Shown: positions 3,076 to 21,290 of the stretch, piece after piece
How the letters are laid out: every line of letters begins with the position of its first letter
Numbering within the stretch: position 1 is the first letter of the stretch
Source of the DNA: Haloplanus sp. HW8-1
GTDB lineage: Archaea > Halobacteriota > Halobacteria > Halobacteriales > Haloferacaceae
NCBI RefSeq assembly: GCF_023703795.1
Contig: NZ_CP098518.1
Location: 1,550,001 to 1,614,000, forward strand
Length of the DNA stretch: 64,000 nt
Direction of reading: 5' to 3'
Made by a program: the position numbers and the translations under genes
The notes under the pieces: model-generated
What the model was told of the DNA's origin: nothing
What the model saw: the letters and a program-made list of their open reading frames with translations, nothing else
Database searches by the model: none

Positions 3076-4011
3076 ATGAGCGATTCGACACCCTCCGACG
3101 CCGACCCGCAAGCGAAGGCCGCACCCCCGCCAACCGAGCGCAAGCTCCGTCGCGCCCTGAAACAGATCCGTCGGGAGGGGCTGAAGGTCGCCGTCGTCTA
3201 CGCCGTCGTCGACGCCGCGCTGGCCACCCTGCTCGCGAACCTCGTCGCGACGACCGTGGCGGTCCCCGGGTTGCCGGATCGGGTGCCGATCCCCGCGGCG
3301 CTCCTCGACGCCCTCCGGGAAGCGGGCGTGACGCTCGCGGAGCCGACGGTGTCGAGCGGCGCCGTCGTCGGCGCGGCGGTCGGCCTCGTCGTCCTCGTCG
3401 TCGAGGTGGCGTGGCGGATCCGCCGACCGCTGGTCGAGCAGTTCGCGGCCGCCAACCCGTCGCTCGCGGAGTCGCTGCGGACCGCCCGCGACGCCGTCGA
3501 ACACGACCGCCAGTCGCGGATCGTCCTCCGACTCTACGAGGACGTCCTCGCGGGACTGGGGGACGCCTCGAGCATCGGCCTCGTCTCGATCCGTCGGGTC
3601 GCGGTGACCGTACTGCTCGTCTCGCTGATCAGCGTCGCGACCATCCATCTCGCGGTAGTCGACCTCTCGCTGACGGGCCTCGGCAACTCGCCGACGGCGG
3701 AGCCGGCCAACGGGAATCAGGAGGACTACACGGGACTGCAGGACGGGTCGTCGATCCTCGGCGAACCGGAGGACGTCCCTCCGGGTAGCGAGGAGCTAGA
3801 GGCCGGCATCGACACCAGCGGATCGGGGAGTGGCAACGGGACCGACACGGGAGACGCGACGTCGTACGAGAACAGCGGCCTCGGTTCGTCGACCGCCGTC
3901 GAGAGCCAGCGCGCGGGGTTCGACGAACGGGACCGCCTCGAAGACGCGGAGTTGATCCGCGAGTACAATCTCCGGATTCGACAGCAGACTGATTCCGACT
4001 CAGACACATGA
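3076..4011 (+). CDS. Conserved haloarchaeal membrane protein of the MoxR operon
   Basis: 311 aa. The basic N-terminal region (residues 20-40) leads into hydrophobic segments at about 37-60, 94-112 and 172-196. Residues 205-290 form a long, low-complexity, Gly/Ser/Asp/Glu-rich segment that looks disordered and probably extracellular. It lies 5 bp after the coiled-coil gene and its stop overlaps the MoxR start (ATGA). I do not recognise a named domain with certainty. Its fixed place between the VWA/coiled-coil genes and MoxR suggests it is a subunit of the same membrane assembly. Confidence 0.75.
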   Translation: MSDSTPSDADPQAKAAPPPTERKLRRALKQIRREGLKVAVVYAVVDAALATLLANLVATTVAVPGLPDRVPIPAALLDALREAGVTLAEPTVSSGAVVGAAVGLVVLVVEVAWRIRRPLVEQFAAANPSLAESLRTARDAVEHDRQSRIVLRLYEDVLAGLGDASSIGLVSIRRVAVTVLLVSLISVATIHLAVVDLSLTGLGNSPTAEPANGNQEDYTGLQDGSSILGEPEDVPPGSEELEAGIDTSGSGSGNGTDTGDATSYENSGLGSSTAVESQRAGFDERDRLEDAELIREYNLRIRQQTDSDSDT

Positions 4012-18751: not shown

Positions 18752-21232
18752 TCACTCCTCGACGACGACCGTTCCCTCCATTCCCGCCGCCTCGTGCGGG
18801 ATGCAGACGTAGGCGTGTTCGCCCGCCGTCTCGAAGGTGTGGACGTAAGACTGGCCGGCGGCGACGGCACCCTCACCGTTCTCCCACCCGGTACGGGCGG
18901 CCTCCTCGGAGTCGAAGCCGCCGGAGGCCCAGTAGGTCGCCCCCTCCGGAATCCCGCTGCCGGAGGCGGTGACGCTGTGGGGTTCGCCCCCGGCGTGGCT
19001 CCAGGCCACCGTGTCGCCGACGGAGACGGTGAGTTCGGCCGGATCGTACGCGACGGCGTTCATATCGACGACGTGGTCGGCGTCGTCGGGGACGCCGGAG
19101 ACGACGTTGGGGCCGCCGGACATCTCGGGTTCGCCACCACCGCCGCCGCCCTCGTCGCCGACGGACATCTCGGGCGCCGCGTCCGGCGTGCCCGCGACGG
19201 CGAAGAAGGCCGTCCGGATCGCTTGCGCGAACCGTTCGCCCGCGGCGTCGACGTCGCCGTCCGCTTCGAGCGCGGTGGTGTAGTCCGAGAGCGCCTTCTC
19301 GAACGTCTCGTAGGCCCCCCGGTCGCCCTCCTCTAGGGCCTCGTGGACGCGCGCGCTCTCGAAGGCCGCGAACACGTCCGCGACGAGCGGTGCGGCGTTC
19401 ACGTCGCCGCCGGAGCCACCGTTTTCGACGACGGCGTAGACGGCGGCGGTCGCCTCGTCGGCGAACGTCGTCGCGGCGTCGTAGGCGTCGGCGTCGCCGG
19501 TCGTCGCGCCCTGGACGGCCCCGAGAGCCTCCTCGAAGGAGTGATAGCGCTCCTCGCTGGCCGCCTCGACCGCTTCGTGGAAGCCGTTGGCACCGCCCTC
19601 GAAGTAGGCGAAGGCGTCGCTGGCGACCGCCTCGGCGCGGTCCGTCGCGCCGACCGTCGCGAGGGTGCCGGCGTCACCGGCCCGGCCGGTCATATACGTC
19701 GCGGCGGCGGCGCTCGCGACCGGCGTCGATCCGGCACCGGCCTCGAACGCCACGAGGGCGTCCGTCGCGCCGGCGACGTGAGTCGCCACCGCGTCGTCGT
19801 CGCCCGCACGGAAGGCGTCGGGCAGGGCCGCGAGGTGTTCCTCCTCGAAGGTGTGATAGAGGTTCTCGCCCTCCGCCTCCAGCGCCTCGTGGAAGCCGGC
19901 CTCGTTCGCCTCGAAGCGGGCGAAAAGGCTCTCCGCCACCGTCGCGGCGACCTCCCCCTCGCCTCGGAGGTAGCGCTCGTGGGCGTCGCCCAGGCGGGCG
20001 CGGAAGAATCCGGACTCGAGGACCGGCGCGGCGTCACCGGCCAGCGCCGTGATGCCCGTCGTCAGGCCGTCGTGGACGGTCGTGACGGCCTCGTCGACGC
20101 CGGCGTCGTCGCCGTCCTCGATGGCCGAGACGAGGGCTTCTAGCCCCTCGTGTTCGAACGTCTCGTAGGCGGACTCGCTGGCCGCCTCTAGGGCCTCGTG
20201 GGCGCGGGCACCCTCGAAGTGCTGGAAGATGGACTGGGCGGCGGCCTTCGCGGCGTCGGGGTAGCCGGCATCGTAGAGCCACGCTGCGTCGCGGACGCGG
20301 ACCCGGTAGCCGTTGAGGCCGGCGGCGTGGGCGACGCCGAGGCCGTGACCGCCCGTGCCGGTGGCCATCTCGGCGTCGAAGCCGACCGCCCCCATCAAGG
20401 AGAGGTGGCCGATCCCTGCGATGGGGTCGGTCGTGAGTTCGTACGCGGCGTCGACGACGCCCTGTGACGCCGACAGCGCGGCCTCGTGGACCGCCCCGGC
20501 GTCGCCGGACTGTGCGGCGGCGACGGCGTCTTCGAGTCCGCCCTCGAAGGCCTGGTAATACGCCTCGCCGGCCGACTCGATGGTGTCGTGGACCGCGGCT
20601 TCCTCGAAGTCGGCGAGAACCGCCCGTCCGACCGTCGCCGCCGCGTCGGTCGCGCCGGCCATCGCCAGCGCGTCGACGTTTCGCGCGCGGGAGCCGTAGA
20701 CGTAGAGCGTGAACACCTCGGCGACGTCGCCAGAGGTCCGCCCACGCTGGGCCGCGAGCAGATTCGTCTCCGCCTCCGCGGCCGCCTCGACGGCGTCCTC
20801 GGGTGTGCCCTCCTCGAAGCCCGTACGGGCCGCGCCGAGATGTTCCTCGAAGGACTCGTAGGCCGACTCGCTGGTCGATTCCAGCCCCTCGTGGGCACCC
20901 CACTCGCCGCCGGCGTTCTCGAAACGGGCGAACACGTCGCCGACGAGCGTCGCCGCCGCGGCTTGGTGGCCGGCGCGCCCGAGCGCCGTCGCGTCGTGGA
21001 GTCGTGCTCGCATCACGTTCCACTCGGCGGCGAGAGCGGTCGCGGCCGACGCCTCCGCCGTGGGCGTCTCGGTCGCGGTCGGGTCCGCAGTGTCAGCCGC
21101 GGTCGGGCCCACGGTGTCCGTCGCGGTGGGATCGCTCCCGTCGGAACCGCTCCGTCCGCCACAGCCGGCGAGCCCGACGCCGCCGAGTGCGACGCCGGTG
21201 GTCTTGAGTAGTCGTCGTCTGGTGTGTCGCAT
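18752..21232 (-). CDS. Large exported six-repeat protein with C-terminal cupredoxin (DUF5059/halocyanin)
   Basis: 826 aa. Twin-arginine start (RRRLLKTTG) and lipobox LAGCGG (Cys 24), then a Thr/Asp-rich linker. Residues 100-650 hold six related units, each with an FxxFE motif, HExxE-like residues and a Y..FE motif (starts near residues 100, 205, 335, 436, 540 and 620). A Gly/Glu linker leads to a halocyanin-like cupredoxin (720-826) with copper ligands His752, Cys810, His813 and Met818. The repeats look like an alpha-helical metal-binding array; the cupredoxin should transfer electrons. Two DtxR-like palindromes sit in the promoter, so metal (probably iron) availability is likely to control it. 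Confidence 0.85.
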   Translation of the reverse strand: MRHTRRRLLKTTGVALGGVGLAGCGGRSGSDGSDPTATDTVGPTAADTADPTATETPTAEASAATALAAEWNVMRARLHDATALGRAGHQAAAATLVGDVFARFENAGGEWGAHEGLESTSESAYESFEEHLGAARTGFEEGTPEDAVEAAAEAETNLLAAQRGRTSGDVAEVFTLYVYGSRARNVDALAMAGATDAAATVGRAVLADFEEAAVHDTIESAGEAYYQAFEGGLEDAVAAAQSGDAGAVHEAALSASQGVVDAAYELTTDPIAGIGHLSLMGAVGFDAEMATGTGGHGLGVAHAAGLNGYRVRVRDAAWLYDAGYPDAAKAAAQSIFQHFEGARAHEALEAASESAYETFEHEGLEALVSAIEDGDDAGVDEAVTTVHDGLTTGITALAGDAAPVLESGFFRARLGDAHERYLRGEGEVAATVAESLFARFEANEAGFHEALEAEGENLYHTFEEEHLAALPDAFRAGDDDAVATHVAGATDALVAFEAGAGSTPVASAAAATYMTGRAGDAGTLATVGATDRAEAVASDAFAYFEGGANGFHEAVEAASEERYHSFEEALGAVQGATTGDADAYDAATTFADEATAAVYAVVENGGSGGDVNAAPLVADVFAAFESARVHEALEEGDRGAYETFEKALSDYTTALEADGDVDAAGERFAQAIRTAFFAVAGTPDAAPEMSVGDEGGGGGGEPEMSGGPNVVSGVPDDADHVVDMNAVAYDPAELTVSVGDTVAWSHAGGEPHSVTASGSGIPEGATYWASGGFDSEEAARTGWENGEGAVAAGQSYVHTFETAGEHAYVCIPHEAAGMEGTVVVEE

Positions 21233-21236
21233 CAGA

Positions 21237-21254
21237 TTTTAGGCTGGCCTAAAA
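21237..21254 (-). promoter_or_regulatory. Perfect 18-bp palindrome: DtxR/SirR-type metal box
   Basis: TTTTAGGC-CA-GCCTAAAA read on the minus strand, a perfect 8+8 inverted repeat with a 2-base centre. It lies 4 to 22 bases before the ATG of the cupredoxin-repeat gene. The TTAGGC...GCCTAA core is that of DtxR/IdeR/Idr operators. In this position it would overlap the transcription start and block RNA polymerase. Confidence 0.8.
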
Positions 21255-21271
21255 ATACAAAAACGCTCCGG

Positions 21272-21290
21272 TTTTTAGGTCAGCCAAAAA
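21272..21290 (-). promoter_or_regulatory. Second, imperfect copy of the metal box
   Basis: On the plus strand this reads as TTTTAGGT-CA-GCCAAAAA, matching 16 of 18 positions of the palindrome at 21237-21254. Its centre is 35-36 bases away, about three to four helical turns. Two regulator dimers could therefore flank the TATA region (about 21251-21268). Confidence 0.7.

Follow-up and report, generated by a model that had tools for sequence, protein, structure and literature searches.

An exported DUF5059-cupredoxin protein of Haloplanus sp. HW8-1 as a probable iron-capture lipoprotein

The window analysed here, a 64-kb stretch of the Haloplanus sp. HW8-1 genome, contains between 18752 and 21290 a single gene, whose product joins helical repeats to a copper domain and whose start codon is preceded by two palindromes. 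The locus raises the question of whether such a protein captures a metal outside the cell, which metal this would be, and what a redox domain would contribute. The analysis suggests that the DUF5059-cupredoxin protein probably captures iron and is made when this metal is in short supply.

Domain order and helical repeats of the exported protein

The gene (21232..18752, minus strand, as are all protein features below) encodes 826 aa. Based on its ORF and its PF16502 and PF00127 matches, it belongs to the same family as HVO_1228 of Haloferax volcanii (DUF5059; hcpE), which served as the positive control of the DUF5059 profile search and was matched; the closest named relative was Haloplanus ruber. 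The N-terminus, MRHTRRRLLKTTGVALGGVGLAGC, consisted of a twin-arginine signal with a lipobox (RRRLLKTT...GLAGC, residues 1–24; 21161..21232), in which R5, R6 and A22-G23-C24 were invariant among 48 homologs, in agreement with the exported protein that the original prediction had described. HcpE of Haloferax volcanii has been reported as a putative Tat lipoprotein (PMC6267482). Past the lipid anchor, a Thr/Ser/Asp-rich linker (residues 25–65; 21038..21160) was predicted to be disordered by its sequence and pLDDT, the latter being below 50 for residues 1–57 in the AlphaFold2 model. The full DUF5059 profile (PF16502) was matched at residues 66–687 (E 1.4e-213; 711.6 bits, curated Pfam cut-off 25), followed by the plastocyanin/azurin profile PF00127 at residues 721–825 (E 6e-16; 59.1 bits, Pfam cut-off 21.2).

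The cupredoxin domain (residues 721–826; 18755..19072) carries the type-1 copper ligands H752, C810, H813 and M818, all four invariant among the 48 homologs, and its model could be superimposed on plastocyanin 2plt with a Z score of 14.6 and an rmsd of 1.0 Å over 91 aligned residues. The proposed fusion of the repeats to a redox copper domain was thus confirmed, with an intact copper site. The name halocyanin held in part: the tail is a cupredoxin of the plastocyanin/halocyanin type by its PF00127 match, but its score against the NCBI halocyanin model TIGR03102 (33.1 bits) did not reach the curated cut-off of 93.8.

The motif FE-x(4-8)-H[ED]xxE-x6-YxxFE occurred exactly six times in the protein, beginning at residues 104, 209, 339, 440, 544 and 624, and was absent from all of 5000 composition shuffles. 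Its YxxFE part may resemble extracytoplasmic parts of FTR1. In five of the repeats the E/H/E/Y/E set was invariant among the 48 full-length homologs, in support of the repeats described at first: E105, H114, E118, Y125 and E129 in repeat 1 (residues 66–171; 20720..21037); E340, H345, E349, Y356 and E360 in repeat 3 (residues 278–403; 20024..20401); E441, H448, E452, Y459 and E463 in repeat 4 (residues 404–509; 19706..20023); E545, H552, E556, Y563 and E567 in repeat 5 (residues 510–587; 19472..19705); and E625, H630, E634, Y641 and E645 in repeat 6 (residues 588–692; 19157..19471). Repeats of one protein were 29–40% identical to each other, and the only residues invariant across 54 aligned repeat copies (repeat 2 excluded) were F39, E40, H49, E53, Y60 and E64.

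Repeat 2 (residues 172–277; 20402..20719) was degenerate and the fastest evolving, with the His retained in 30 of the 48 homologs. Homologs lacking this His tended to have lost the other motif residues as well (Fisher p 0.0016, without correction for relatedness), as would be expected if the ligand set is kept or lost as a unit; judged by its sequence, repeat 2 is decaying.

AlphaFold2 predicted each repeat as a four-helix bundle, composed of four long helices and a short one bearing HExxE. The helix list places the motif residues where the second helix finishes, on the short helix and where the next one begins, and hence all at one end of the bundle, a modelled arrangement compatible with clustering of His and Glu. 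Helix 583–607 appears in the model to be shared by repeats 5 and 6, so that the six motifs correspond to slightly fewer than six complete bundles. The predicted six repeats of about 100 residues therefore stand as motifs, with the reservations of the degenerate repeat 2 and of the slightly incomplete bundle count. Taken together, metal binding by the predicted sites in the repeats is strongly suggested.

A fold search with the whole model (mean pLDDT 87.5) was filled by cupredoxins, and repeats 3–4 were therefore folded alone (mean pLDDT 97.0). Foldseek gave no match to this pair at E < 0.9. The top VIA matches were generic four-helix bundles (PsbQ, Z 11.8; NarQ sensor, Z 11.3; alpha-catenin, Z 11.3), and no score of the modelled pair rose above the range in which bundles of helices resemble each other through their arrangement alone. 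A profile of the repeat retrieved only designed or generic helical bundles from the PDB sequences. Its matches beyond the family in 116 genomes were weak (E about 0.002–0.02) and were rejected as composition matches; six of them, when examined, were four arginyl-tRNA synthetase-like proteins, one catalase-peroxidase-like protein and one ATPase. A weak TarH match below the cut-off was set aside as bundle resemblance.

Promoter boxes and the link to iron genes

The near box, TTTTAGGCTGGCCTAAAA (21237..21254), ends 4 bp before the ATG, matches the consensus at 16/16 positions and forms a perfect TTTTAGGC-N2-GCCTAAAA palindrome, while the far box, TTTTAGGTCAGCCAAAAA (21273..21290), lies 36 bp from it and matches at 14/16. 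Both the perfect and the imperfect palindrome attributed to this promoter were thus recovered, and no other site in the window exceeded 12/16. Among 62 homologous loci, a score of 12/16 or more was reached by the near box at every locus and by the far box at 54; both reached at least 11/16 at a spacing of 33–37 bp in 57, and this two-box arrangement was conserved in many genera. The pattern TT.GG....CC.AA was fixed in 116/116 boxes counted at these loci, and 0.9% of random 75-nt pieces of the same loci reached 12/16 as background. The form of the boxes resembles Corynebacterium DtxR sites such as TTAGG...CCTAA (PMC524172), and two DtxR-family regulators (PF02742) were found in the Haloplanus genome. 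The assignment of the boxes to the DtxR/iron type is accordingly well supported by their conservation, by the two regulators and by their occurrence at iron transporter genes. A third box was observed about 90–150 bp upstream of the start codon in six Haloplanus-like and Haloferax loci.

Perfect TTTAGGNNNNCCTAAA sites occurred eight times in the Haloplanus genome, one of them 8 bp before the SBP_bac_6 binding-protein gene of an FbpABC-type operon. In Haloterrigena, Natrinema hispanicum and Halobellus clavatus, a FecCD-family ABC transporter locus lies immediately before the DUF5059 gene; the same boxes run through this siderophore-type cluster in the first two, and the cluster of Halobellus clavatus has boxes further upstream. 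Clustering of the neighbourhoods of DUF5059 loci revealed no conserved partner overall, and none in most genomes.

Published expression data point in the same direction. HVO_1228 rose by log2 +4.2 together with iucA, iucB, iucD and Fe(III) substrate-binding protein genes upon CRISPRi repression of endA (PMC7714728), and changed by −2.92 together with iucA and one Fe(III) substrate-binding protein gene in a cas1 fen1 double mutant (dcas1 dfen1; PMC9051519). That the gene moved in opposite directions in two unrelated experiments, each time in company with these iron genes, is good evidence that they share a regulon. In the portion of the H. volcanii iron-starvation proteome report that was available, HVO_1228 was absent among the 19 strongest changes, of 10-fold or more (PMC11349517), and a published experiment directly varying iron for the DUF5059 gene was not found. 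Iron control of the DUF5059 gene is very likely. No IucA/IucC protein was detected in the Haloplanus genome, and the role of the DUF5059 protein therefore does not need an iucA-type siderophore pathway.

Boxes were also observed at other genes. Perfect iron-type boxes precede two glycosyltransferase-like genes (L060:3844-3859 and L061:5756-5771; G000:C1:705843 and 2113255); one encodes a Glycos_transf_2 protein, and the other, as read from its ORF, adjoins the FbpABC-type operon. In Ca. Halobonum, a Glycos_transf_2-like gene neighbours the DUF5059 gene and FbpBC-like genes. An iron-regulated link to surface sugars is possible. A further pair of boxes in the Haloplanus genome, 34 bp apart as in the DUF5059 pair (L063:3845-3860 and 3879-3894), sits between a ParA-like ATPase gene and a translation release factor-like gene.

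Proposed mechanism and its alternatives

The reading that we prefer, at a probability of roughly 55%, is that of a Tat-exported, lipid-anchored protein, induced by iron starvation, which captures iron outside the cytoplasmic membrane, uses copper redox chemistry and hands the iron over to an ABC transporter. Under iron-replete conditions, the two boxes, which span the promoter and the start of the gene, would be occupied by a DtxR-family repressor loaded with iron; once iron falls, the gene would be expressed together with iron ABC transporters. Each of the five intact bundles may then hold one iron ion or a few at a Glu/His/Glu/(Tyr)/Glu site, and the tethered type-1 copper domain could exchange single electrons with the iron bound there. 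The captured iron would be passed to an ABC transporter, of the FbpABC type in the Haloplanus genome and of the siderophore type in others. We infer repressor binding at the boxes, metal binding, the identity of the metal and the hand-over partner; the redox coupling between the copper domain and the repeats is suggested by their fusion, and its direction is likewise a proposal.

As to this direction, Fe(II) would be oxidised and retained as Fe(III). Sites rich in carboxylates favour Fe(III), and the potential of type-1 copper is high, so that oxidation of Fe(II) should be easier than reduction of Fe(III). Halocyanins hand electrons to the respiratory chain, and the copper may be re-oxidised through this chain. 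Given this general chemistry, and since the co-regulated transporter is of a ferric type, oxidative capture with hand-over to a ferric ABC transporter appears to fit somewhat better than reductive capture.

The main rival to oxidative capture is a pure binding role, in which the repeats form a multi-site iron sponge at the surface, and the copper domain serves for docking to a membrane partner, or simply holds copper, with no redox chemistry on iron. This is unlikely, yet it deserves attention, as the number of repeats varies: long forms have six, and short forms, about 500 residues in length, have three (repeats 1 and 6 and a degenerate repeat 2) and keep the copper domain and the boxes. However, the four copper ligands are all invariant, and among the loci examined no full-length family member devoid of the cupredoxin was noted; together these findings suggest that the copper site works with the repeats.

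Reductive capture, as originally proposed, would have the copper domain donate electrons to Fe(III) at the repeats or on chelates and so free Fe(II) for uptake. In aerobic brine, iron should be present mostly as Fe(III), and a redox domain is indeed fused to a putative metal array under iron control. Specific support for the reductive direction was not found, and a His/Glu site beside a high-potential copper fits oxidation of Fe(II) at least equally well; the box-bearing transporter of the Haloplanus genome is of the ferric FbpABC type, and no link to an Fe(II) transporter was seen. The chance that the protein works in this manner is accordingly small.

A slimmer chance is given to an iron-sparing role, whereby the copper protein, produced under iron shortage, would replace an iron-containing electron carrier and the helical array would serve as a spacer through the S-layer. 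Halocyanins are one-electron carriers of haloarchaea (PMC8305020), and respiratory iron proteins fall under iron starvation in the available part of the H. volcanii proteome report (PMC11349517). A mere spacer, however, would not keep E/H/E/Y/E invariant in five repeats of 48 homologs.

Uptake of manganese, zinc or copper under a DtxR-type metal regulator is improbable: regulators of this family also sense manganese and the structural model does not distinguish metals, but the same box stands at siderophore-type and ferric transporters, and the ortholog HVO_1228 moved with siderophore synthesis genes in both datasets, so that iron is favoured and manganese less so between the two metals initially named. 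Heme capture by the invariant His/Tyr pair of each bundle, as in some hemophores, is highly improbable: heme is a frequent ligand of helical bundles, but the three invariant Glu of each site speak against it, and no heme-uptake gene adjoined the DUF5059 gene in the loci examined.

Distribution and comparison with known iron systems

DUF5059 was detected in 100 of 391 Halobacteria-class genomes, about a quarter, including Haloferax volcanii and Halobacterium salinarum, and in a broader draw from the phylum all 11 DUF5059 matches fell in the order of Haloplanus sp. HW8-1. One genome carried two full-length paralogs (G231:C1:3309894-3311762 and G231:C1:11989-13857). Frames that looked interrupted or altered, with odd ORF lengths and split profile matches, were observed in Haloferax massiliensis (L146), Halobacteriales QS_9 (L141 and L078) and one further genome (G287); these copies are possibly pseudogenes or sequencing errors.

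Iron capture by the DUF5059 protein would offer a testable function for a catalogued domain of unknown function, one that also occurs in Haloferax volcanii and Halobacterium salinarum, both open to genetic work. If true, it would connect the homeostasis of copper with that of iron in archaea and would represent copper-linked iron capture that does without an FTR1 permease and arose independently of EfeO. A bolder and less likely reading is that haloarchaea, devoid of FTR1 and EfeUOB, evolved an independent copper-linked iron-capture lipoprotein in which five Glu/His sites hold iron, a tethered type-1 copper domain wired to the respiratory chain sets the redox state of these sites, and ABC transporters are fed.

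EfeO of the EfeUOB system is likewise exported and under iron control, and combines a cupredoxin with helical bundles bearing His/Glu sites. The domain order is reversed, however, and EfeO has one M75/imelysin domain where the DUF5059 protein has five to six short bundles and a lipid anchor. The bundle folds may be broadly alike, their scores lying in the generic-bundle range (E. coli EfeO, 7wgu_B, Z 7.0 over 101 aa; imelysin 3n8u, Z 9.6 over 105 aa). M75 (PF09375) gave no match in the 826-aa protein at E <= 10 and none over the curated cut-off in the 391 Halobacteria-class genomes, and hhalign of DUF5059 with E. coli EfeO, a weak comparison with a single-sequence target, gave a probability below 1%. 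FTR1 permease was likewise absent from the 391 genomes, while E. coli and other positive controls were matched; any redox-driven transport in the class must therefore differ from Ftr/Efe. The description as EfeO-like in logic and different in build proved apt on these grounds, and the likeness to EfeO is one of analogy only.

In FtrAB/P19 systems, too, iron uptake involves a copper protein together with acidic iron sites, both outside the membrane, but these systems need an FTR1-type permease and have no helical repeat array. Ferric FbpABC transporters with DtxR/IdeR-type boxes have the iron box in common with the DUF5059 gene in the Haloplanus genome; DUF5059 is not a periplasmic-binding-protein fold and would be an upstream partner of such a transporter. 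The closest counterparts are the HcpE/HcpG proteins, and it is under these halocyanin names that the family, catalogued as a domain of unknown function, is already known. Full-length members such as HVO_1228 have the same domain order and export signal, with no structural difference from the Haloplanus protein, and those of Haloferax species have the same double boxes. Earlier regulon papers may already list the gene; to this known family the present analysis adds the conserved double iron box, the invariant ligand set per repeat and the link to iron transporters.
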